Part shown: positions 15,068-25,384 of the stretch, in pieces
Layout: every line of letters starts with the position of its first letter
Position numbering within the stretch: position 1 is the stretch's first letter
The notes under the pieces: generated by a model
The model's input: the letters and a program-made list of their open reading frames with translations, nothing else
What the model was told of the DNA's origin: nothing
The model's database searches: none
Program-made: the position numbers and the translations under genes
NCBI RefSeq assembly: GCF_000522985.1
Contig: NZ_CP007128.1
Coordinates: forward strand, 5,068,220 to 5,132,219
Length of the DNA: 64,000 bases
Reading direction: 5' to 3'
Source: Gemmatirosa kalamazoonensis
GTDB lineage: Bacteria; Gemmatimonadota; Gemmatimonadetes; Gemmatimonadales; Gemmatimonadaceae

Positions 15068-15485
15068 AGTAGAACCCCTCGATGCTCCACCGCACCACGT
15101 CCGCCGTGAGTGCGTGGAGCTGGGCCTGATCGAGCACGCCGGGGGTCGCGTCGCGCACCGCGGCCTTCAGGACGATGAGCATCCGCTCCGGCGGCGTCCC
15201 GTCCGCGCGCAGCTGCGCGGCGTAGGCCGCCACGACGTCGCGTGCCTCGCGCCGCGTGGTCGGCGTCGGCACCCGCCGTCCCGCCGCCGCGTCGATGAAC
15301 GTGCGCGCGCGGCCGCGCAGATCGGTGCCGCGCGGCGGGGTCGCCGTCGCCGCCATGGTGGCCGCGAACCGCGCGAGGGTGTCGTGGAGATGCGCCGACG
15401 AGATGGGGGCGGGGCGTCCCGTCGTCGGTACCCGCTCCGCTCCCAGCGCGGCCTCACCGATCCCGTCCGTGGGCTCGTGCTCCAT
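15060..15485 (-). CDS. Conserved-looking hypothetical protein
   Basis: 141 residues, mostly helical, with no signal peptide or membrane segment. The C-terminal half (PPERMLIVLKAAVRDATP and VVRWSIEGFYSP) looks like a compact helical unit. I do not recognise it. The start is ATG 15485; GTG 15494 is an alternative. Its stop codon lies in the first unit of the decamer array, so array changes could alter the C-terminus. It is divergent from the Eco57I-type gene. Confidence 0.65.
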   Translation of the reverse strand: MEHEPTDGIGEAALGAERVPTTGRPAPISSAHLHDTLARFAATMAATATPPRGTDLRGRARTFIDAAAGRRVPTPTTRREARDVVAAYAAQLRADGTPPERMLIVLKAAVRDATPGVLDQAQLHALTADVVRWSIEGFYSP

Positions 15486-15656
15486 CGCGCTCACCTTGCG
15501 CAGGCGTCGCACCGCGCCGGCCCCGCTGCCGGCCCGGTTGCTTTGGAAGCCAAGTATCCGCTTGGAGCGGTCCGCGTCAAGGGCGACGCGACGAAACGAC
15601 CGGACTCGCGTCGCCAGGGTACCGTCACACTGCGGGCGCCAGCGCACCGTCGGCGC

Positions 15657-18600
15657 GTGCGACTCGCCGACGCCGCCCGCCTGCTCGCCGCCGCCCACGA
15701 CGCGGGTGCGCTCGTCGCGCTCGTGCAGGCGCTCGGCTTCGCGGACGCGCCGATCGCCGTGGGGCGGGACGCCGCCGCGTCGCTCGCGCGGTACGGCGTG
15801 CGCGGCGCGCGCGTGCTCGAAGGCCGCGGTCCGCCGCGCGCGCTGCTCGGCGAGGCGACCGACGCGCGGCCGGTGCGCGAGACGCTCGCCGCCGTCGCGC
15901 GCCACCTCGCGGCCGTGGCGCCGGCGCAGCGATGGCTCGTCGCGCTCGCGCGCGAGGACGGGAGCGAAGTGGCGCTCGCCGTCTGCCGCGTCGAGCGCTC
16001 CGAGCGCGTACCGCGCATCGCGGCGCTCGTCGCCGACCCGCGTCGCGTGCTCACGAGCGACGCCGAGACGTTGTGCGCGCTCGCCACTGGTGCACCGGAC
16101 AGGTGGCACGAGCTGCTCGGACGCGAGGCGCTGTCGCGGCGCTTCTATCGGCAGCTCGAGACCGCGGTGCGCGCGCTCGCCGACACCGCGTCGGGCCTCG
16201 ACGACGGAGCGGCGCGTGCGGAGATCGCGCTGCTGTACGTGTCGCGCCTGCTCTTCCTCGCGTTCGTCGAGGCGAAGGGATGGCTCGACGGTGATCACGG
16301 CTTCCTGCGGCGCACGTACGACGCGTGCCGCGCGACGGGAGGGCGCTACCACGAGCGCGTCCTGCGGCCGCTGTTCTTCGGCACGCTGAACACACCGCCG
16401 CGCCGGCGCGCCGGCGCGGCACGAGCGTTCGGCCGCATCCCGTTCCTGAACGGCGGCCTGTTCGCGCCCACGCCGACGGAGCGTCGCCATCGCGCGCTGC
16501 GCCTCGACGACGACGCGTTGGGCACCGTGGTCGTGGGCCTGCTCGGCCGCCACCGCTTCACGGCACGCGAGGAGAGCGGCGCGTACTCCGAGGCCGCGGT
16601 CGATCCGGAGATGCTCGGCCGCGCGTTCGAGTCGCTCATGGGCGCGGACGCGCGCCGCGCGACGGGCGCGTTCTACACGCCGCAGCCGCTCGTCGAGCAC
16701 GTGACGGCCGAAGCGTTAGGCGCTGCGCTCGGCCGCGACGACCCGGCCGTCGATCGGCTGCTCGCCGGCGGACGGCTCGAGGGCGCGGCGGCGGACGCGG
16801 TGCGCGATCGGATCGCGGCGCTGCGCGTGCTCGACCCGGCGTGCGGAAGTGGCGCGTTCCTCGTCCATGCGATGGAGCGTCTCGCCGATCTCGTGGGGCG
16901 ATGCGGCGACGCGCGTCCCACGGCGGTGCGCCGCCGCGACGTGCTCGCGCGCTCCGTGTTCGGCGTCGACGTGAACCCGACCGCGGTGTGGCTGTGCGAG
17001 CTGCGGCTGTGGCTCTCGGTCGTCGTGGAGAGCGACGAGCCGGACCCGATGTGCGTCGCGCCGCTGCCGAACCTCGATCGTCACGTGCGCCTCGGCGACT
17101 CGCTCGCCGCGCCGTCGTGGGCGCGCGGATGGGGCGGCGACCCGTGGGCGCGCGTGGAGCGCGCGACCCGGCGCGGCGAGCGGAGCACCGCGCAGTCGCT
17201 CCGCGCGCGCTACGTGCGCGCGTCGGGGCGCCGCAAGGTCACGTTGGGCGCGGCGCTCGAGCGCGTCGAGCGCGAGGCCGCCGTCGACGCGCTCGATCGC
17301 GTGCTCGGCGCGCGCCGCGCCGAGCGAGGCGCGCTGCTCGTCGCCGCGCGTGGACGCGACCTGTTCGGCGCGCGCCGCGGCAGCGACGCCGCCGAGCGGC
17401 GACGGCTCGACGCGCTGCGCGCCGAGTGCCGCGAGCTCGCGGCTCGCCGGCGCGCGGTCGCCCGCGGCGGTGCGCTGCCGTTCGGCTTCGCGTGGCACTT
17501 CCCCGACCTCGCTGCGTCGCGCGGCTGCGGCGTCGTGCTCGGGAATCCGCCATGGGTGCGGCCGCACGCGTTAGGCGCCGGCGAGCGGCGCGCGCTCCGC
17601 GCCGCGTACGACACGTGCCGCGACGCCGCATGGTCGCCCGGCGCGTCCGCCGCCGGCGCCGGGCGCGGGTTCGGCGGCCAGGCCGACCTCGCGGCGCCGT
17701 TCCTCGAGCGCTCGCTCGCCCTCGTGCGCCCCGGAGGCATCGTCGCGCTGCTCGTGCCCGCGAAGCTCTGGCGCGCGCTCGCCGGCGGCGGCGTGCGGCG
17801 CCTGCTCGCGCGCGAGGCGCGCGTGCGCGTCGTCGAGGACTGGTCCGACGCGCCGGCCGCGTTCGACGCGGCGGTGTATCCGTCCCTCGTGGTGGCCGAG
17901 CGAGCGTGGAGCGTGGAGCGTGGAGCGAAGAGTGAACAGAGCCGCTCCACGCTCCACGCGCCACGCTCCACGCTCACCGTCCGCGTGCACGACGCGTCCA
18001 GCGCGCGCGAGTGGCCTGTCGACGCGACAAGGCTGCCGCTCGACGACACGCCCGGCAGTCCGTGGCTGCTCGTGCCGCCCGCCGTGCGCGACGCGATCGC
18101 GCGGCTGCGCGCGGCCGGCGTGCCGTTGGGCGAGGCGGGACTGGGACGCGTGCGGCTCGGCGTGAAGTGCGGGTGCAACGACGCGTTTCTCGTGCGCGTG
18201 GTCGACGAGGACGGCGACGTCGCGCACGTCGACGGGGTGTGGCCGGACGGGCGGGCGCGCCACGGCGTCGTGGAGCGTGCCCTGCTCCGACCCGCCGCGC
18301 GCGGCGAGACGCTCCACGACGCGGCGGACGCCGCGCGCGAGCGGCTGCTCTGGCCCCACGATGCGACCGGCCGGCCGCTCGGCGCGCTGCCGCCGCACGC
18401 GGCCCGTTGGCTCGCGCCGTGGCGGGCCGCGCTCGCCGCGCGAAGCGACGCGCGGTCCGGCCGCGGGCCGTGGTGGGCGCTGTTCCGCACCGCCGCGGCC
18501 GTCGGCGCCATGCCGCGCGTGGTGTGGGCGGACGTGGCGCGCACGCTCCGGCCGCGCCTGCTGCGGGCCGGCGATCCCACCGTGCCGCTCAACTCCTGCT

Positions 18601-18869
18601 ACGTGCTGCAGTGCACCCCGACCGACGCGGCGCCACTTACCACGCTCCTGGGGTCGCCCGTCGCCGCCGGGTGGTGCGCCGCTTTGGCCGAGCCCGCGAG
18701 AGGCGGGTACAGACGACACCTCGCGTGGACCGTGGCGCTGCTCCCTGTGCCGCGGGACTGGACCGCCGCCCGCCGGCTGCTCGCCCGCGACGGGTCGATG
18801 GCGGCGGTCGCGGCGGCGTACGGCCTGGCGGCCGAGACGCTCGCGCCGCTCGCCGTGCATCCCGACTGA
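15657..18869 (+). CDS. Eco57I-type restriction-modification DNA methyltransferase (solitary, type IIG-like)
   Basis: About 1070 residues from GTG 15657 (the start is uncertain). The N-terminal third is helical, including LLGREALSRRFYRQLETAV and a segment ending FLNGGLFAP. The methylase core follows: GAFYTPQPLVEHV (about 337), the SAM motif LDPACGSGAFL (about 392) and the catalytic NPPW (about 629), which mark an N6-adenine methylase. A target-recognition region makes up the C-terminal third. Type IIG enzymes combine cutting and methylation, but I see no clear PD-(D/E)xK site. A foldback repeat (17902-17977) is inserted in frame at residues about 749-774. No helicase or BREX/DISARM gene is adjacent. 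Confidence 0.82.
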   Translation: MRLADAARLLAAAHDAGALVALVQALGFADAPIAVGRDAAASLARYGVRGARVLEGRGPPRALLGEATDARPVRETLAAVARHLAAVAPAQRWLVALAREDGSEVALAVCRVERSERVPRIAALVADPRRVLTSDAETLCALATGAPDRWHELLGREALSRRFYRQLETAVRALADTASGLDDGAARAEIALLYVSRLLFLAFVEAKGWLDGDHGFLRRTYDACRATGGRYHERVLRPLFFGTLNTPPRRRAGAARAFGRIPFLNGGLFAPTPTERRHRALRLDDDALGTVVVGLLGRHRFTAREESGAYSEAAVDPEMLGRAFESLMGADARRATGAFYTPQPLVEHVTAEALGAALGRDDPAVDRLLAGGRLEGAAADAVRDRIAALRVLDPACGSGAFLVHAMERLADLVGRCGDARPTAVRRRDVLARSVFGVDVNPTAVWLCELRLWLSVVVESDEPDPMCVAPLPNLDRHVRLGDSLAAPSWARGWGGDPWARVERATRRGERSTAQSLRARYVRASGRRKVTLGAALERVEREAAVDALDRVLGARRAERGALLVAARGRDLFGARRGSDAAERRRLDALRAECRELAARRRAVARGGALPFGFAWHFPDLAASRGCGVVLGNPPWVRPHALGAGERRALRAAYDTCRDAAWSPGASAAGAGRGFGGQADLAAPFLERSLALVRPGGIVALLVPAKLWRALAGGGVRRLLAREARVRVVEDWSDAPAAFDAAVYPSLVVAERAWSVERGAKSEQSRSTLHAPRSTLTVRVHDASSAREWPVDATRLPLDDTPGSPWLLVPPAVRDAIARLRAAGVPLGEAGLGRVRLGVKCGCNDAFLVRVVDEDGDVAHVDGVWPDGRARHGVVERALLRPAARGETLHDAADAARERLLWPHDATGRPLGALPPHAARWLAPWRAALAARSDARSGRGPWWALFRTAAAVGAMPRVVWADVARTLRPRLLRAGDPTVPLNSCYVLQCTPTDAAPLTTLLGSPVAAGWCAALAEPARGGYRRHLAWTVALLPVPRDWTAARRLLARDGSMAAVAAAYGLAAETLAPLAVHPD
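17902..17977. repeat. In-frame foldback repeat (7-bp units) inside the Eco57I-type gene
   Basis: Three tandem GAGCGTG units on the left (17902-17922, plus a partial unit) face inverted CGCTCCA units on the right (17943-17976), separated by about 15 bp. The element is in frame and encodes ERAWSVERG...RSTLHAPRSTL. The same element occurs at 47577-47654 and 60531-60610. Confidence 0.9.
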
Positions 18870-18882: not shown

Positions 18883-18956
18883 CGAGTCCCGTCACGGGTT
18901 CAAACCTTCGGGCGTCCTGCTCCATCTGATCACGCGAGCCCCGACGACCCGATCCA

Positions 18957-19535
18957 ATGATGGTGGCCATCCAGGACTCCCTTCCGCCGTACGACGTCCA
19001 GCAGACGCCGACCGAACCGACCGACGCGGCCCTCGCCGCCGGCGGCGACCGTCGCGCGTTCGAGCGGCTCTACCGGGCGCACGTCGGCCGCGTCTACGCG
19101 CTCTGTGCGCGCATGGCGGCCGACCGGGCGCTCGCCGAGGAGCTGACGCAGGACGTCTTCGTGCGGGTCTGGGAGAAGCTCGCCTCGTTCCGCGGCGAGA
19201 GCAGCTTCGGCACCTGGATCCACCGCGTGGCGGTGAACGTCGTCCTCAACCGCCTCCAGGCCGAGAAACGCGACCGGAAGCGGAGCGCGTCGAGTGACGA
19301 CGAGGACGACGGGATCGCGGCGCTTCCCGCGCGCCCCACGGCGCCGGGTGATCGGATGGACCTCGAGCGCGCGATCGCGGCGCTCCCCCCGGGTGCCCGG
19401 CGGGTGTTCGTGCTCCATGACGTGGAAGGCTTCCGACACGAAGAAATCGCCGAGCAGCTCGGCATCACCAGCGGTGGGAGCAAGGCGCAGCTGCACCGTG
19501 CGCGGCTCCTCCTTCGCGAGGCATTGAACGCATGA
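18957..19535 (+). CDS. ECF-type RNA polymerase sigma factor
   Basis: 192 residues. Region 2 is AFERLYRAHVGRVYALCARM...ELTQDVFVRVWEKL, and region 4 is LPPGARRVFVLHDVEGFRHE followed by EIAEQLGITSGGSKAQLHRA. It directs polymerase to envelope or stress promoters until its anti-sigma releases it. The stop overlaps the anti-sigma start (ATGA at 19532-19535), so the pair is coupled. The three DUF4097 genes behind it are the likely local regulon. A second ATG at 18960 is equally possible. Confidence 0.93.
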   Translation: MMVAIQDSLPPYDVQQTPTEPTDAALAAGGDRRAFERLYRAHVGRVYALCARMAADRALAEELTQDVFVRVWEKLASFRGESSFGTWIHRVAVNVVLNRLQAEKRDRKRSASSDDEDDGIAALPARPTAPGDRMDLERAIAALPPGARRVFVLHDVEGFRHEEIAEQLGITSGGSKAQLHRARLLLREALNA

Positions 19536-20479
19536 CCGACCGCATCCTGTCTTCCGAGCGCGGAGTCGCGGCGCCGGCCGATTGCGACCGGTTCGACACG
19601 CTGCTCCCCGATTACCTGGAGAGCGCCCTGCCGCCCGAGGCCCGCACGTGGGCCGAGGGACACGTGGCGGCGTGCGACCGGTGCCGGGCGCTCGCCGACG
19701 ATCTCGTGGCGATCACCCGGCAGGCGGCGGCCCTCCCGCCGCTGCAGCCGGCGCGCGACCTGTGGGCCGGCATCGCCGAACGCATCGAGGCGCCGGTGGT
19801 CCCGCTCGGCCGTACCGGCGAGCAGGCGCTTCCGACGCTCCGCGTGGAGCGCACGACGACCGCGCCGCGGCTCTCCGACCGCTTCTTCCAGTCGAAGCGG
19901 TGGCTGGCCGCGGCGGCGGGCGTGCTCGTCGCCGTCTCGGTGGGGTCGACGTACGTCGTGATGCGCGCCGCGGGCCGCGCGCCGTCGACGGTGGTGGCCA
20001 CGACGACACCCGCGCCGGTGACGACGCCGGTGACGACGCCGGTGACGACGCCGGTGACGCCGCCCGACCGCGACACGGCCGCCGTCCAGCCGACGCCGAC
20101 GAACGTCGCGCAGGCGTCGGACACGCGTTCGCCGGCCGCCGAGGAGGCGCGCCGTCGCGCGGAGGCGCGCGTGGCGGCCGAGTCGCGCCGCTTCGTCCGC
20201 TCGACCGACGGGGGCGATGCCTACGCGCCGGTCATGCAGACGTACGACAAGGAGATCGCCGCCCTGCGCACCGCGCTGCGGCAGCGCAAGGACCTCGACT
20301 CGAGCACCGTCGCGGTGCTGGAGAAGAATCTCCGCCTCATCGACGACGCGATCGCGCAGAGCCGCGCCGCGCTCGCGCGCGACCCGCACAGCCGCGTCGT
20401 CGGCGATCAGCTCACGCACGCGCTCGACCTGAAGGTCGAGCTGCTGCGCACCGCCGTGCTTCTTCCTTCGCGCTCCTGA
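19532..20479 (+). CDS. Zinc-finger anti-sigma factor with a periplasmic domain
   Basis: 315 residues. The N-terminus has an anti-sigma zinc finger (HVAACDRC, HxxxCxxC) for binding the ECF sigma factor. One membrane segment (LAAAAGVLVAVSVGSTYVVM) is near residue 135. A Thr/Pro linker built on 12-bp DNA repeats (VTTPVTTPVTTPVTPP) leads to a periplasmic helical domain (about 200-315, KEIAALRTALRQRKDLD...). The signal that releases sigma is unknown; regulated proteolysis is usual for this layout. Confidence 0.9.
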   Translation: MTDRILSSERGVAAPADCDRFDTLLPDYLESALPPEARTWAEGHVAACDRCRALADDLVAITRQAAALPPLQPARDLWAGIAERIEAPVVPLGRTGEQALPTLRVERTTTAPRLSDRFFQSKRWLAAAAGVLVAVSVGSTYVVMRAAGRAPSTVVATTTPAPVTTPVTTPVTTPVTPPDRDTAAVQPTPTNVAQASDTRSPAAEEARRRAEARVAAESRRFVRSTDGGDAYAPVMQTYDKEIAALRTALRQRKDLDSSTVAVLEKNLRLIDDAIAQSRAALARDPHSRVVGDQLTHALDLKVELLRTAVLLPSRS

Positions 20480-20507
20480 CGGTGCGCGGTTCTTTGGGTA
20501 CATCACC

Positions 20508-21446
20508 ATGCGTGTCATGCAGCAGCACCCTCTGATCTTCCCGCTCGTCGCCGCGGCGCTGGCGCTGCCGGCGGTCGCCGGACGCGCGCGGGCGCAGGAC
20601 CGCGACGCGTACCGCATCGACACGACCGTGACGGTCGGCAGCGGCGCGTCGGTCGACCTCGGCCTCATCAACGGCGACGTGATCGTCACGGCGTCGAGCG
20701 GCAGCGCGGTGCGCGTGAAGGCGTACAGCGACGTGATCCCGCTGCGCTTCGAGCACATCGGCAACACCGTGCGCGTGCTCACCGAGAACGGCCGCTACCG
20801 CCGCGGCGGCGACCAGCGCATGGAGGTCGTCGTGCCGACGGGCACGCGGGTGAGCGCGTCGAGCATCTCGGGCAGCGTCTCGGTGCGCGGTGCGCACGCC
20901 GAGGTCGAAGCGTCGAGCACGAGCGGCGACGTGACGGTGGAGGACGCGGTGCGGCGCGCCTCGGCGACGAGCGTGAGCGGCTCGGTCCGGGTGCGCGACG
21001 TCGACGGCGACGTGCGCGCGCGGTCGACGAGCGGCGACATCACGGTCGACCGCGTGAACGGGCTCGTCGACCTGGAGACGGTGAGCGGCGAGGTGGAGGT
21101 GCACGCGGCACGCTCCGACCGGGTGCGCGCGCAGACGCTGAGCGGCGAGGTGACGTACGAGGGGACGATCTCGCGCGATGGGCGCTACGACCTCACGTCG
21201 CACTCCGGCACGGTGCGCCTCGTGGTCCCCGCCGACGCCGGGATCTCGCTCACCGCGTCGACGTTCAGCGGCTCCGTGAACAGTCGGCTGCCGGCGACGC
21301 TCGGCCCGACGACGCAGACCGGCGGCGTGCGCCGCGGTGGGCGCATGGAGCTCGCCATCAACGGCGGCGGCGCGCGCGTGACGGCGTCGACGTTCAGCGG
21401 CGACATCGTGATCGAGACCGCGGAGCGCGCCTCGCGGCGCCCGTGA
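20508..21446 (+). CDS. DUF4097-family secreted beta-solenoid protein, paralogue 1
   Basis: 312 residues with a signal peptide ending GRARAQ. The rest is a repetitive beta structure with SGS/SGD turns about every 18-22 residues (SSISGSVSVRG, SSTSGDVTVED, STSGDITVDR, TVSGEVEVH, STFSGDIVIE). This DUF4097 adhesin-like pattern predicts a right-handed solenoid. It follows the sigma/anti-sigma pair by 28 bases and precedes two paralogues. It is probably an envelope or surface protein made under sigma control; no enzymatic function is visible. Confidence 0.82.
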   Translation: MRVMQQHPLIFPLVAAALALPAVAGRARAQDRDAYRIDTTVTVGSGASVDLGLINGDVIVTASSGSAVRVKAYSDVIPLRFEHIGNTVRVLTENGRYRRGGDQRMEVVVPTGTRVSASSISGSVSVRGAHAEVEASSTSGDVTVEDAVRRASATSVSGSVRVRDVDGDVRARSTSGDITVDRVNGLVDLETVSGEVEVHAARSDRVRAQTLSGEVTYEGTISRDGRYDLTSHSGTVRLVVPADAGISLTASTFSGSVNSRLPATLGPTTQTGGVRRGGRMELAINGGGARVTASTFSGDIVIETAERASRRP

Positions 21447-21476
21447 GTGCCTAACACCCCCGGACCCAGACCCGCC

Positions 21477-22283
21477 ATGATCCGCCTGACGATCGCCCTC
21501 GCCACCCTCGGCACCGCCCTCGCGCTGGCGCGTCCCGCCGAGGCACAGCGCCGCTCCGACACGTTCAACTGGGAAGGACGCGTGCCGAGCGGGAAGTGGA
21601 TCTACCTCCGCAACGTGAACGGCGAGGTGCGCGTCGAGCGCGGCACCGGCGACAAGGTGCAGGTGACCGCCACGAAGCGCTGGCGCCGCGGCAACCCGGA
21701 CGACGTGCGCATCACGACGGAGAAGGCCGACGACGGCGAGAGCGTCGTGGTGTGCGCGCTGTACAACCCGGACGCGACGTGCGACGAGAACGGCTACTCC
21801 AGCCGCGGACGCCGCCACTACTCGGGAAACGACGACAACGACGTGAACGTGGAGTTCGTCGTGCGGGTGCCGGCCGGCGTGCGCGTCGACGCGAGCACGA
21901 CGAACGGCGACCTCTCGGTCACCGGCGCGACGTCGGAGGTCATCGCGCACACGACGAACGGCGACGTGCGCGCGGAGAGCACGGGCGGCCCCGTGAACGC
22001 GAGCACGACGAACGGCAACGTCACGGCGAGCATGCGCGACCTCGGGTCGTCGCGCGACCTCGACTTCTCGACGACGAACGGGTCGGTGATCGTCGAGGTG
22101 CCCGCGTCGTTGGGCGCCGAGATCGACATGTCGACGACGAACGGGCACGTGGCGTCGGACTTCCCGATGACGCTGAGCGGACGCATCGATCCGCGGCGGC
22201 TGCACGCGACGATCGGCGACGGCTCGCGGCGGCTGCGGCTGCACTCCACGAACGGGAACGTGGAGCTGCGCAAGGTTCCGTGA
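21477..22283 (+). CDS. DUF4097-family secreted protein, paralogue 2 (TTNG turns)
   Basis: 268 residues with a signal peptide (TLGTALALARPAEAQ). After an N-terminal module (WIYLRNVNGEVRVERGTGDKVQVTA), turns of the type STTNGD/STTNGN recur at least six times (ASTTNGDLSV, AHTTNGDVRA, ASTTNGNVTA, FSTTNGSVIV, MSTTNGHVAS, LHSTNGNVEL). The turn motif differs from paralogues 1 and 3. Two cysteines lie in the N-terminal half. ATG 21477 is preferred because it precedes the signal peptide directly. Confidence 0.82.
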   Translation: MIRLTIALATLGTALALARPAEAQRRSDTFNWEGRVPSGKWIYLRNVNGEVRVERGTGDKVQVTATKRWRRGNPDDVRITTEKADDGESVVVCALYNPDATCDENGYSSRGRRHYSGNDDNDVNVEFVVRVPAGVRVDASTTNGDLSVTGATSEVIAHTTNGDVRAESTGGPVNASTTNGNVTASMRDLGSSRDLDFSTTNGSVIVEVPASLGAEIDMSTTNGHVASDFPMTLSGRIDPRRLHATIGDGSRRLRLHSTNGNVELRKVP

Positions 22284-22327
22284 CGGCGAGGACGAAACGA
22301 GGCGGGGGCGCAGGCCGTAGATCCGGC

Positions 22328-23107
22328 ATGCGCCCTCTTCTCGTTCTGACCCTGCTGCCGGTCCTCGCCGCGTGCGGTCGCGCGCACGGGCCCGACCGGT
22401 CCACGTGGCACGGCGCCGTGCGGCCCGGCGCGTGGCTGCGCGTGCGCAACACGAACGGACCGATCCGCGTCGCGCGCGCGAGCGGCGACGAGGTGGTGAT
22501 CTCGGCCACGCGGTCGTACCGCGGGCGTCGCCCGGAGCCGGTGCGGATGGTCGTCGAGCGCGAGGGCGCGGACGCCGTCGCCTGCGTGACGTGGGGCGAC
22601 TCGAACCGGTGCGGCAGCCGGGGCGGCCGGCAGCCGTTCTGGCTGCGCATGCTGCGCCACTACGCGCCGACGGAGATGTCGTTCGTCGTCGCCCTGCCGC
22701 CGGGCGTCCGGCTCGACGCGTCGACGGTGAATGGGCGCGTGACGGTCGCCGACGCCGCCAGCGAGGTGGTGGCGAGCTCGGTGAACGGCTCGATCGTGCT
22801 CGGCGCGACGGGCGGCCCGGTGCGCGCGAAGACGGTGAACGGCAGCGTGGAGGCGCAGCTCGACGCGCTGGCGCCGGGGACGCGCGTGTCGCTCGAGAGC
22901 GTGAACGGCGCGGTGACCGCGCTGCTGCCGAGCGCCCTCGACGCGTCGCTCGACCTGTCGACGGTGAACGGCAGCCTCACGGCGCCCTTCCCCGGCGTGA
23001 CGATCCCGCGCGGCGCGCGATCGCTCCACGCGACACTCGGCGCCGGCGGGCGCGCCGTGTCGCTTCGTACGGTGAACGGGAGCGTGCGCGCGGAGCCGTC
23101 GAGATAG
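22328..23107 (+). CDS. DUF4097-family lipoprotein, paralogue 3 (VNG turns)
   Basis: 259 residues with a lipobox (LLPVLAACG), so it is lipid-anchored, unlike its two neighbours. The same N-terminal module as paralogue 2 (WLRVRNTNGPIRVARASGDEVVISA) is followed by VNG turns (ASTVNGRVTV, ASSVNGSIVL, AKTVNGSVEA, LESVNGAVTA, LSTVNGSLTA, LRTVNGSVRA). It is the last gene of the sigma/anti-sigma operon; a long foldback hairpin starts at its stop codon. It is likely a membrane-anchored partner of the other two. Confidence 0.82.
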   Translation: MRPLLVLTLLPVLAACGRAHGPDRSTWHGAVRPGAWLRVRNTNGPIRVARASGDEVVISATRSYRGRRPEPVRMVVEREGADAVACVTWGDSNRCGSRGGRQPFWLRMLRHYAPTEMSFVVALPPGVRLDASTVNGRVTVADAASEVVASSVNGSIVLGATGGPVRAKTVNGSVEAQLDALAPGTRVSLESVNGAVTALLPSALDASLDLSTVNGSLTAPFPGVTIPRGARSLHATLGAGGRAVSLRTVNGSVRAEPSR

Positions 23108-23184
23108 GGCAGGAGGGCAGGAGGGCGGGAGGGCAAGAGAGCATCGGACTCTCCTGCCCTCCCGCGCTCCTGCCCTCCTGCCCT
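23106..23184. repeat. Foldback repeat with 8-bp units, 36-bp arms
   Basis: The left arm (23106-23141) is built of GGGCAGGA-like units. The right arm (23150-23184) is its reverse complement with about two mismatches. It follows the DUF4097 lipoprotein stop and sits directly before the promoter of the Bax-inhibitor gene, so it may also end transcription. Confidence 0.9.
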
Positions 23185-23228: not shown

Positions 23229-23918
23229 ATGGGCGCTTCCTATCGCCCCTACGCCGTGGGCGCCGGGGTCGCGGTGCGCACCGGTGCCGAGCGGGCGACG
23301 CTGGTGCGGCGCACGTATCTGCTGGTGTTCGCCGGCATCCTCGTCACGATGCTCGGCTGCGCGTTCGGGTTCACGCAGCCGGCGATCATGCAGGCGGTGT
23401 GGCGGCACCCGTTCCTGTCGTTCCTCGTGACGTTCGTGCCGCTGATGGCGGCGCAGTCGCTGCGCGACCGGTTCCCGGCGAACATCGGGCTGACGCTCGC
23501 GTTCACGTTCGCCGAAGGCGTCTGGCTGTCGCCGCTGATGTACTTCGCGCAGCAGCAGTCGCCGGGCATCATCGGGCAGACGGCGCTGCTGACGGGGAGC
23601 ACGTTCGGCGTCCTGACGCTCTACGCGTTCCTGAGCCGGCGCGACTTCAGCGCGTGGGGCGGGTTCCTCACGGTCGGCCTGTGGGTGCTGATCGCGACGT
23701 CGCTGCTCAACCTGTTCTTCCACAGCGCGGCGGCCGACCTGTGGCTGGCGGGCGTCGGGACGTTCCTGTTCAGCGGGCTGCTGGTGTTCGACACCTGGCG
23801 GCTGCGCAACGTCTACGGGCCGAACGACTACGTGCTCGCCGCGGTGAACATCTACCTCGACCTGCTGAACCTCTTCCTGTTCATCCTGCGGCTGCTGATG
23901 GGGAACCGGAGAAGCTAG
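23229..23918 (+). CDS. Bax inhibitor-1 family membrane protein (YccA/YbhL-like)
   Basis: 229 residues with seven hydrophobic segments. BI-1 family features are RRTYLLVFAGILVTMLG at the start, GLTLAFTFAEGVWLSPL, LLTGSTFGVLTLYAF, and the C-terminal VFDTWRLRNVYG...AVNIYLDLLNLFLFIL. Bacterial members form pH-sensitive Ca2+ leak channels or modulate FtsH. It is a single gene with its own promoter and terminator. Confidence 0.93.
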   Translation: MGASYRPYAVGAGVAVRTGAERATLVRRTYLLVFAGILVTMLGCAFGFTQPAIMQAVWRHPFLSFLVTFVPLMAAQSLRDRFPANIGLTLAFTFAEGVWLSPLMYFAQQQSPGIIGQTALLTGSTFGVLTLYAFLSRRDFSAWGGFLTVGLWVLIATSLLNLFFHSAAADLWLAGVGTFLFSGLLVFDTWRLRNVYGPNDYVLAAVNIYLDLLNLFLFILRLLMGNRRS

Positions 23919-24036
23919 CTGCGTGGCTGCGTGGCTGCGTGGCTGCGTACACGTCGAACGGGCCGGCTCCTCGTCGAGGATGCCGGCCCGTTAGGCACTC
24001 AGGCTGCGCAGCCACGCAGCCACGCAACCACGCCGC
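23919..24036. repeat. Foldback repeat with 8-bp units (GCTGCGTG) around a nested terminator
   Basis: Four GCTGCGTG-type units (23919-23950) face inverted CAGCCACG units (24003-24036). The same unit recurs at 41105-41179. Between the arms is a second hairpin (23957-23992). The element spans the whole space between two convergent genes. Confidence 0.9.
23957..23992 (+). terminator. Long nested terminator hairpin after the Bax-inhibitor gene
   Basis: AACGGGCCGGC and GCCGGCCCGTT (11-bp perfect arms) enclose a second stem TCCTC/GAGGA, giving a nearly continuous 16-bp stem. The right arm runs into CGTTAGGC (23989-23996), so the octamer overlaps the stem. Confidence 0.75.
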
Positions 24037-24329
24037 TACGTCATGGCGGCTCGATCGATGTCCGCCGCCAGCGCCAGATCCTTCGCGGTGATGCCGCCGG
24101 CGCTGTGGGTGCTGAGGGTGCAGGTGATCTTCGTGTACCGGATGTCGACGTCGGGGTGGTGATCGACGGCGTCGGCGGCGTCGGCGACGCGGCTCACGAA
24201 GTCGATCCCGGCGCGGAAGGTCGGGAACTGGAACGTCTTCACGAGCACGTCGCCGCGGCGGCTCCAGCCGGCGAGGCGGCCGAGCTCCCGCTGGATGTCG
24301 ATGTCGGAGAGGCGTTGCGCAGGCGGCAT
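24036..24329 (-). CDS. 4a-hydroxytetrahydrobiopterin dehydratase (pterin carbinolamine dehydratase)
   Basis: 97 residues, the usual size. Signatures are GWSRRGDVLVKTFQFPTF, FVSRVADAADAVDHHPDVDI and TCTLSTHSAGGITAKDLALA; the DHHP motif holds the catalytic histidines. The enzyme recycles the pterin cofactor of aromatic amino acid hydroxylases, although many bacterial homologues lack such a partner. No hydroxylase is in the window. The ATG at 24329 gives the standard length. Confidence 0.93.
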   Translation of the reverse strand: MPPAQRLSDIDIQRELGRLAGWSRRGDVLVKTFQFPTFRAGIDFVSRVADAADAVDHHPDVDIRYTKITCTLSTHSAGGITAKDLALAADIDRAAMT

Positions 24330-24415
24330 GACGTGCTGGGAGAGAGGGCGGGTCGCGGCGTCGGCGGCCAGAATAACGGTTGCCGGGCGCGCCGACAATT
24401 CCGGCGGGGCGACTT

Positions 24416-24435
24416 GCGTTAACGCTTCTTAACGC
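24416..24435. promoter_or_regulatory. Inverted repeat upstream of the PEP-CTERM gene
   Basis: GCGTTAA and TTAACGC are perfect 7-bp arms around CGCTTC, 71 bp upstream of the PEP-CTERM gene. It is AT-rich for this DNA. It could be an operator; the binder is unknown. Confidence 0.4.
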
Positions 24436-24505
24436 ACCGAGGTCCTGTGGCGCCGGCCATGGGGGACCACGTTCAAGCCCCGTTCCCTCACTGGAGGCCT
24501 CTGCC

Positions 24506-25384
24506 ATGAGGACATTCGCCCACGCGACCCTCGCAGCCGCCGTCCTGCTGTCCGCCGCCGTCACGCCCGCCCAGCCCGTCTTCATCAGCACCGGCCTGCC
24601 CGACGGCCGGCTCGGCACCGCCTCGAACACCGCCGGTGGCGGCCAAATCGAGCGCGAGACCGCCGACGACTTCCTCCTCACGCACGTCAGCAGCCTCACC
24701 TCGGCGTCGTTCTACGGGCTGCTGCCGAGGGGGCTCACCCCGAGCGACATCACCGCGCTCAGCGTCGAGATCTACGGCGTGTTCCCGGTCGCCTCGAACG
24801 TCGGGCGCACCTCGGGCCCGCCGCTGTTCTCGACCCCACTGGTGCCGACGCGCGTGAACTCGCCGAGCGACGTCGACCTCGTCGGCCGCAGCATCGGGTC
24901 GGGACTCACGTTCAGCGCGACGCTCCTCGGTCCGTTCAACGTCGCGAACTCCGTGGTGAACGGCATCAATCCCACGCCGGGCAACCTCACCGGCGGCGAG
25001 GGCCCGGTGAGCGGCGACGAGGTCCGCATCGACGTGACGTTCACGGACCCGTTCATCCTCCAGGCGGGGCACTACTTCATCGTGCCGACGGTGGGGCTCA
25101 CGAACGGCACGTTCCTCTGGCTGTCGGCGGCGAAGCCGATCGTCGGCGGCACGCCGTTCCTGCCCGACCTGCAGACGTGGATCCGCAACGCGAACCTCGA
25201 CCCGGACTGGCTGCGCGTCGGCACCGACGTCATCGGCGCGCCGAGCACCGGCGGCCCCCCGCCGACGTTCAACGCCGCGTTCACGCTCAGCGGCGCCGCC
25301 GTTCCGGAGCCGTCGACGCTCGCGCTGCTCGCCGGCGGCCTGACGCTCGTCGCGGGCATCGGCGCGCGGCGGCGGCGCACGTAG
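24506..25384 (+). CDS. PEP-CTERM sorting-signal exported protein
   Basis: 292 residues. A signal peptide (LAAAVLLSAAVTPAQ) is followed by a beta-rich body without known enzyme motifs. At the C-terminus is a complete PEP-CTERM signal: VPEPSTLALLAGGLTLVAG, then GARRRRT. Such proteins are cut and anchored by exosortase (EpsH/XrtA) and are associated with exopolysaccharide and biofilm. No exosortase gene lies in the window, so it must be elsewhere. CTGGAGG near 24491-24497 is a plausible ribosome site for ATG 24506. Confidence 0.9.
   Translation: MRTFAHATLAAAVLLSAAVTPAQPVFISTGLPDGRLGTASNTAGGGQIERETADDFLLTHVSSLTSASFYGLLPRGLTPSDITALSVEIYGVFPVASNVGRTSGPPLFSTPLVPTRVNSPSDVDLVGRSIGSGLTFSATLLGPFNVANSVVNGINPTPGNLTGGEGPVSGDEVRIDVTFTDPFILQAGHYFIVPTVGLTNGTFLWLSAAKPIVGGTPFLPDLQTWIRNANLDPDWLRVGTDVIGAPSTGGPPPTFNAAFTLSGAAVPEPSTLALLAGGLTLVAGIGARRRRT

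Follow-up and report, generated by a model that had tools for sequence, protein, structure and literature searches.

Proteins of the DUF4097 family are already known to take part in bacterial envelope stress. In the accessible text of PMC11237479 the toastrack fold of this family (PF13349; PDB codes 4qrk, 3pet and 4opw) is argued to be an intracellular domain and an operonically linked sigma factor is mentioned in passing; in that of PMC9239133 LiaG is termed an extracellular DUF4097 protein. The word "Gemmatimonad" is absent from the text of both. Here we describe a locus of Gemmatirosa kalamazoonensis in which three DUF4097-type proteins, A, B and C, are encoded behind an extracytoplasmic function (ECF) sigma factor and its anti-sigma factor, all five genes lying in a row on the plus strand at positions 18957-23107 of a 64,000-nucleotide stretch (NZ_CP007128.1, positions 5,068,220 to 5,132,219). 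This stretch, denoted the window and used for all coordinates below, belongs to a 5.31-Mb contig of a 7.48-Mb genome in four contigs. On balance we favor the view, with more confidence than doubt, that the Gemmatimonadota possess in this locus a self-contained module for envelope stress, with selection for matched side-chain ladders in each of its solenoids. The toastrack proteins are the closest known relatives: A and B score above the Pfam threshold, and their models match these structures best. In contrast to the intracellular location argued for that domain, A, B and C carry an apparent Sec signal or lipobox; moreover, they stand under an ECF sigma factor.

The sigma factor (18957..19535) is confined to regions 2 and 4 (Pfam Sigma70_r2 64.5 bits and Sigma70_r4_2 64.3 bits, each above its cut-off; NCBIfam sigma70-ECF 102.4, cut-off 42.9) and overlaps by 4 bp with the zf-HC2 anti-sigma factor (19532..20479; 30.9 bits, cut-off 22.2), a combination that defines an ECF sigma factor with a class I anti-sigma factor. 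A (20508..21446) and B (21477..22283) exceed the PF13349 cut-off of 22.9 with 69.1 and 45.9 bits, respectively, and start with signal peptides; C (22328..23107) misses it with 18.4 bits but is 38% identical to B (BLAST E 2e-52; A-B 29%, E 2e-10; A-C 26%, E 2e-7) and has the lipobox LAAC. For B the start was taken at ATG 21477, which is followed by the signal peptide, instead of GTG 21447 of the open reading frame (ORF) list. The signal peptides and the lipobox, judged by eye, together with two conserved cysteines in B point to a location outside. Of the six DUF4097 matches in the genome three are A, B and C; the turns of another one (L005) are mostly NGG. A search against Pfam reported no PspC, LiaF or SHOCT parts in A, B or C.

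The operon with its three paralogues under one sigma factor had been recognized, with the same genes and coordinates, by the first-pass annotation of the window, made from sequence alone. Its N-terminal module common to all three paralogues is reduced to a two-cysteine module shared by B and C and absent from A. Likewise, C appears to be the lipoprotein it had proposed, whereas "soluble" for A and B has to be read as periplasmic or secreted in view of their export signals.

Predicted fold and turn ladders

The mature A and B proteins were modeled with AlphaFold2 from alignments of 33 and 36 sequences (32 of the 37 listed A references and 35 of the 39 listed B references being used), with mean predicted local distance difference test values of 93.0 and 93.6, respectively. 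Both models depict a right-handed single-stranded beta-helix with a toastrack N-terminal part, and the nearest solved structures are the toastrack proteins 4qrk, 3pet, 3lyc, 4ygu and 4opw (B to 4qrk: Z 13.2, root-mean-square deviation (rmsd) 3.6 for 195 aligned residues); sequence profiles alone revealed no credible solved relative up to an E value of 1. A match of the B model to chain AM of 7muc, a Legionella Dot/Icm core reconstruction, was also observed (Z 9.5). In some A proteins a helical, heptad-like extension is seen by eye between signal peptide and solenoid (L097:2338-3408, L098:5849-6964, L102:1972-3186 and L113:5823-6965).

Each coil of about 18 residues would turn at x-x-[S/N/D]-G, and the turn residues would thereby line up as a ladder along one edge. 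Relative to the turn glycine, positions -7, -5, +2 and +4 are hydrophobic in 83 to 100% over all rungs and positions -8, -6 and +5 are charged in about half or more, as is expected when one face of a solenoid is turned inward and the other outward. In the models the strand ends at the residue before the turn glycine, as checked for two rungs of A and one of B. For the side chain at -1 the strand alternation suggests an inward direction, while the charged and long residues tolerated in A suggest an exposed edge.

In the window the turns of A read ISG, TSG, VSG, TSG, VSG, LSG, HSG, FSG and FSG, i.e. nine xSG turns forming a serine ladder, eight of them SG(S/D/E), in addition to VDG and NG turns. 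B contains five exact TTNG turns and one STNG (an asparagine ladder with threonine before the asparagine) and C six VNG turns, with one further NVNG and NTNG, respectively, inside the N-terminal module. The repetition of each motif six or more times, as originally described, is thus exact for A and C and applies to B only if STNG is counted. The uniformity inside each protein is genuine and has the appearance of being selected: the count of threonine turns per protein, taken over 141 B proteins, has a variance of 1.35, in contrast to 0.39 after shuffling of columns, and none of 5000 shuffles reaches the observed value.

Comparison with relatives was based on 201 loci (140 around the better B matches, 60 around A matches, and the window), which were hand-picked from the hit lists and not drawn at random, the best class-B matches first and then mostly one or two class-A matches per genus; many of the contigs are short fragments. 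After removal of A proteins below 150 bits and B proteins below 240 bits, 189 A and 175 B sequences were retained, of which 188 and 174 became tree tips once identical or gappy rows had been omitted. A ladder type was assigned to A when six or more of eight rungs agree. By this measure 109 proteins are of the small/hydroxyl type, 28 of the amide (Asn/Gln) type and 25 of the acid (Asp/Glu) type, and 27 have none. In the family of the window (f1) 96 of 99 A proteins are small/hydroxyl, with serine as the turn residue; the acid type accounts for 8 of 8 in f7, 4 of 5 in f9, 9 of 48 in f2 and 4 of 13 in f5. A scored B is present in 20 of the 25 acid-type genomes, and in all 20 it keeps asparagine at five or six of its six rungs. 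Within A the long residues Glu and Gln are common at rungs 1-2, and Asp and Asn at most other rungs; a histidine at one rung (184/189) and a phenylalanine at the last (181/189) are specific to their positions. Turn chemistry thus follows the protein and side-chain length follows the position.

Whether rungs change together was evaluated on each gene's own tree, calculated without the ladder columns, by fitting each rung with a two-state model and simulating rungs that evolve independently; the statistic is the number of rung pairs that change on the same branch, and the null expectation derives from 300 simulations (200 for the A +1 acid control). In A the acid state shows 127 co-changes where 2.4 are expected (maximum of all simulations 12), the amide state 106 versus 10.0 (maximum 28) and the small/hydroxyl state 93 versus 8.8 (maximum 20). 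In B threonine shows 29 versus 1.8 (maximum 13). The controls are closer to their null, with 20 versus 16.0 for serine at +1 of B and 94 versus 27.2 (maximum 55) for acid at +1 of A. A second run of the test with grid-fitted rates agrees with the first. A scan along the coil (60 simulations per test; rungs without an aligned glycine omitted, hence 96 acid co-changes instead of 127) gave observed-to-expected ratios of 43, 9 and 12 at -1 of A and of 15 at -2 of B, whereas fifteen of the other tests on A and B range from 0.7 to 2.2. Co-switching therefore resides for the most part in the turn ladder and not in the whole coil. The correlation between rungs drops with their distance for the amide state (0.59 to 0.29) and for small residues (0.73 to 0.53), which supports an effect of neighbors on each other.

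B differs from A in that its ladder is held almost everywhere. Asparagine occupies each of the six B turns in 169-174 of 175 proteins and is preceded by valine in 155-170 per rung, while threonine before asparagine, as in the TTNG turns of the window, occurs in 4 to 14 proteins per rung. Threonine and valine turns coexist in 29 of the 175 B proteins and in 19 of 47 copies that follow B. Among the first set of 141 B proteins 25 contain any such threonine; three are all-threonine (the window, L183 and L202) and the rest are mixed, often in blocks such as VTTTVV (the nearest relatives L037 and L137), VVVTTT or VVTTVV. In L037 (genome G257), the nearest relative, both B and C are mixed. Mixing across relatives indicates that the private motifs are a state of this lineage. 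The first-pass annotation had assigned a turn motif of its own to each paralogue and had named the mixing of motifs within proteins as the outcome speaking against it; this is the outcome found in the related genomes, and the assignment is withdrawn.

Distribution, promoter and anti-sigma factor

An A-type match is present in 323 of 395 genomes of the phylum searched and a B-type match in 257 of 288 genomes of the order searched. Using family profiles built from the first 61 loci, sigma factor, anti-sigma factor and A were found jointly in 175 of the 201 loci, which had been selected by an A or B match, and in all nine Gemmatimonadota families sampled. Among the 40 named loci that B retrieved, a single one belongs to Pyrinomonadaceae, another is titled only "bacterium" and all others are titled as Gemmatimonadota; Acidobacteriota are represented by one weak locus (L136). 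Extra B-like copies vary among loci: 47 follow B, a lipobox-like motif being present in 22 of them, and 16 precede B, 15 of which have mainly serine turns. In L038, L039, L040, L041 and L097-L099, mostly of genus g32, a second sigma-like ORF (56 to 77 bits) is located just upstream of the operon sigma factor. In the pair of loci L041 and L039, the operon of genome G094 (family f2) has the same scores and turn motifs as that of G256, a member of f1; a contig binned wrongly or transferred very recently would explain this.

A candidate ECF-type promoter, TTCAAACC-N17-ATC, is located on the plus strand at 18899..18926, 30 bp before the sigma ATG. The corresponding dyad, TTC[C/A]AACC followed by 17 bases and [A/G]TC (TTCMAACC-N17-RTC), is conserved upstream of the sigma gene in 106 of the 158 loci whose upstream region is long enough, and in 77 of 82 loci in f1, as compared to 37 of 4020 random 250-bp pieces from the same loci. 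It is found in none of 184 stretches before A and none of 181 before B, nor in three further loci of which one strand was read, and the whole 7.48-Mb genome contains four sites. The pattern before the sigma factor's own gene may represent a -35 promoter of the AAC type, and one conserved promoter covers the set. The simplest reading is one autoregulated transcript, the main products of which would be the solenoids, with the sigma factor itself presumably recognizing the predicted site.

The anti-sigma factor consists of a cytoplasmic zinc finger, one hydrophobic segment (by eye), a Pro/Thr-rich linker and a C-terminal domain predicted to lie outside the membrane. In 169 aligned orthologues the histidine and two cysteines of the zinc finger are 96% conserved. 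The C-terminal domain of about 72 residues is conserved across families and has no name of its own in Pfam or NCBIfam.

Directly after C a hairpin of tandem octamers (23106..23184, no strand assigned; arms of 36 nt, 94% complementary) perhaps marks the end of the operon transcript. It is a member of a dispersed repeat: hairpins with tandem 7- or 8-mer arms are found at 17902-17975, 23106-23184 and 23916-24038, and exact 18-mers of the two hairpin types occur in 361 and 138 copies in the genome (361 for the one at 23106..23184; reversed control 0). The hairpin at 17902-17975 lies inside an open methylase ORF and is read through; this ORF (15114-18869), immediately upstream of the operon, encodes an Eco57I/MmeI-type restriction-modification methylase. 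At 24380-25384 a secreted-looking protein with a PEP-CTERM-like tail (VPEPSTLALLAGGLTLVAGIGARRRRT) was noted by eye.

Explanations for matched ladders

If, as likewise suggested in the first-pass annotation, each paralogue kept its own turn motif for self-only assembly, within a layered surface structure, the nearly invariable serine type of A in f1 next to the asparagine of B would be accounted for, as would the lipobox of C. We regard this as improbable, because A itself adopts an Asn/Gln ladder in 28 of 189 proteins, like the asparagine ladder of B, and the difference between the paralogues is therefore not maintained; furthermore, threonine and valine turns are mixed in B and in the copies after it as described above, and the third copy is absent from most loci (47 copies versus 175 B). 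The spread of a turn motif among the repeats of one gene by slippage or gene conversion, which the first-pass annotation had proposed as homogenization, deserves hardly any credence. In its favor, the rung cores of A are slightly more alike within a gene (0.573) than across species (0.490) at the amino acid level, and threonine in B occurs in contiguous blocks, VTTTVV for instance (adjacency permutation 0.033, six genus patterns). At the DNA level, however, the flanks of rungs of one gene are identical by 0.393 in A and 0.390 in B, barely above non-corresponding rungs across species (0.385 and 0.382), while corresponding rungs across species reach 0.483 and 0.516. Asp is mixed with Glu and Asn with Gln according to position, the histidine and the last-rung phenylalanine stay in place, and the spacing of the turns is not constant. 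Since flanks within a gene are as unlike as non-corresponding flanks across species and the long residues are kept at rungs 1-2, the uniformity does not derive from copying of DNA, and slippage or gene conversion is rejected on the basis of the flank comparison. Selection acting on side chains in the stack is consistent with a chemistry that is matched from rung to rung and a length that depends on position.

The ladder changes might as well be a by-product of genome-wide composition, for example of acidic proteomes in salt-adapted lineages. Both A and B are indeed more acidic in acid-ladder genomes, and salt adaptation is a possible contributor for this reason. However, other charged coil positions of A (-8, -6, -4 and +5) do not co-switch (ratios 1.1 to 1.8), the amide and small/hydroxyl states co-switch as well, B keeps its asparagine in the same genomes and the tree-corrected correlation with B charge is r -0.02. 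Composition drift as the sole cause is rejected in view of the position scan and, although retained as a contributor, is unlikely to explain the ladder changes. A different question is whether the solenoids act as output only, as adhesins or envelope armor, with the sigma factor answering some other signal through the anti-sigma C-terminal domain. The strong conservation of this domain, with an alanine and a lysine invariant in the 169 orthologues, and a promoter that appears to serve mainly this operon agree with such a role, as do the relatives annotated in the PDB as putative adhesins, although these names are annotation labels only. We consider this a serious alternative that we nevertheless lean against.

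Several observations weigh against selection on matched ladders in a self-contained module. In 27 of 189 A proteins no single chemistry occupies at least six of eight rungs, and matching is thus not absolute. In the coil scan acid at +1 of A and serine at -3 of B exceed the null 2.9-fold and 3.5-fold. The inter-rung correlation is irregular for the acid state (0.75 to 0.56, then 0.69) and for threonine in B (0.60, 0.53, 0.39, 0.47 and 0.59), and a purely nearest-neighbor cause is accordingly not shown. The charge in acid-ladder as compared to serine-type genomes is -21.4 versus -2.9 for A and -7.1 versus +1.1 for B; salt adaptation may therefore favor the acid state, without explaining the specificity of the co-switching. 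With regard to the promoter, the strict pattern is found in only 8 of 40 loci in f2 and absent from 32. Finally, the A ladder and the C-terminal domain of the anti-sigma factor were compared for complementary charges; this possibility was rejected, as the raw correlation (r -0.33) is lost on the tree (-0.09).

With these points taken into account, selection for matched ladders within an envelope-stress module can be put as follows. The ECF sigma factor, held by the membrane-spanning anti-sigma factor, would drive one promoter, its own, and would thereby make more of itself together with a set of exported right-handed beta-solenoids. A residue of odd chemistry between two like ones would be disfavored in the stack, so that a ladder would tend to switch its type entirely or in runs of adjacent rungs; B would be fixed at asparagine everywhere, and A free to take on Ser, Asn/Gln or Asp/Glu over the greater part or the whole of its ladder. 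The edge of A could then serve as a linear recognition stripe of changeable chemistry, and the exported solenoids may sense or buffer an envelope ligand and feed back on the anti-sigma factor and the stress response, or protect during the latter. Sensing or buffering with feedback is the weakest step of this proposal and is modeled on the DUF4097 proteins of Lia systems. Only tentatively, and with rather more doubt than conviction, we suggest that A is a stripe reset as a unit, its eight or nine stacked turn residues co-switching by cooperative substitutions and not by copying of DNA while B keeps asparagine, and that the stripe sets what the module detects or binds. If this holds, the repeats of A would form a long, linear binding edge that can be retuned between neutral, amide or anionic, and perhaps cation-binding, states.

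Relation to known systems

No publication on this operon or on ladder switching was found in the open-licence literature, a scope in which absence is weak evidence. The locus would define an autoregulated sigma module that many Gemmatimonadota share, its promoter being a prediction and its predicted targets few. Among named NCBIfam entries A, B and C score highest with LiaG and LiaX but stay far below the equivalog cut-offs (49.2 versus 285 and 37.3 versus 350), and DUF4097 proteins are encoded in an envelope-stress operon in the Lia systems as they would be here. In the Lia systems peptides are sensed by LiaX, which in turn feeds back on LiaFSR; a sigma/anti-sigma pair takes the place of LiaFSR here.

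With regard to its presumed mode of action the locus resembles RpoE-RseA-RseB, where a sigma factor, a membrane anti-sigma factor and an exported protein likewise originate from one operon. RseB is not a solenoid, and for A and B any binding to the anti-sigma factor would be putative.

Asparagine and threonine ladders are known from beta-helices such as those of the pectate lyase type and of insect antifreeze proteins, and "asparagine ladder" is an established term. The paralogues share with them the stacking of similar residues where consecutive coils make the same turn, and differ in that the entire ladder of one orthologue switches its chemistry within a phylum. Slippage or gene conversion is a frequent explanation of uniform repeats; in the present case the possible causes are separable, as a uniform column is kept and switched while the surrounding DNA differs between coils as much as between species. 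The family thus provides a natural experiment on how substitutions cooperate (epistasis) in solenoids, in which A has switched several times and the adjoining fixed-ladder paralogue B serves as a control.

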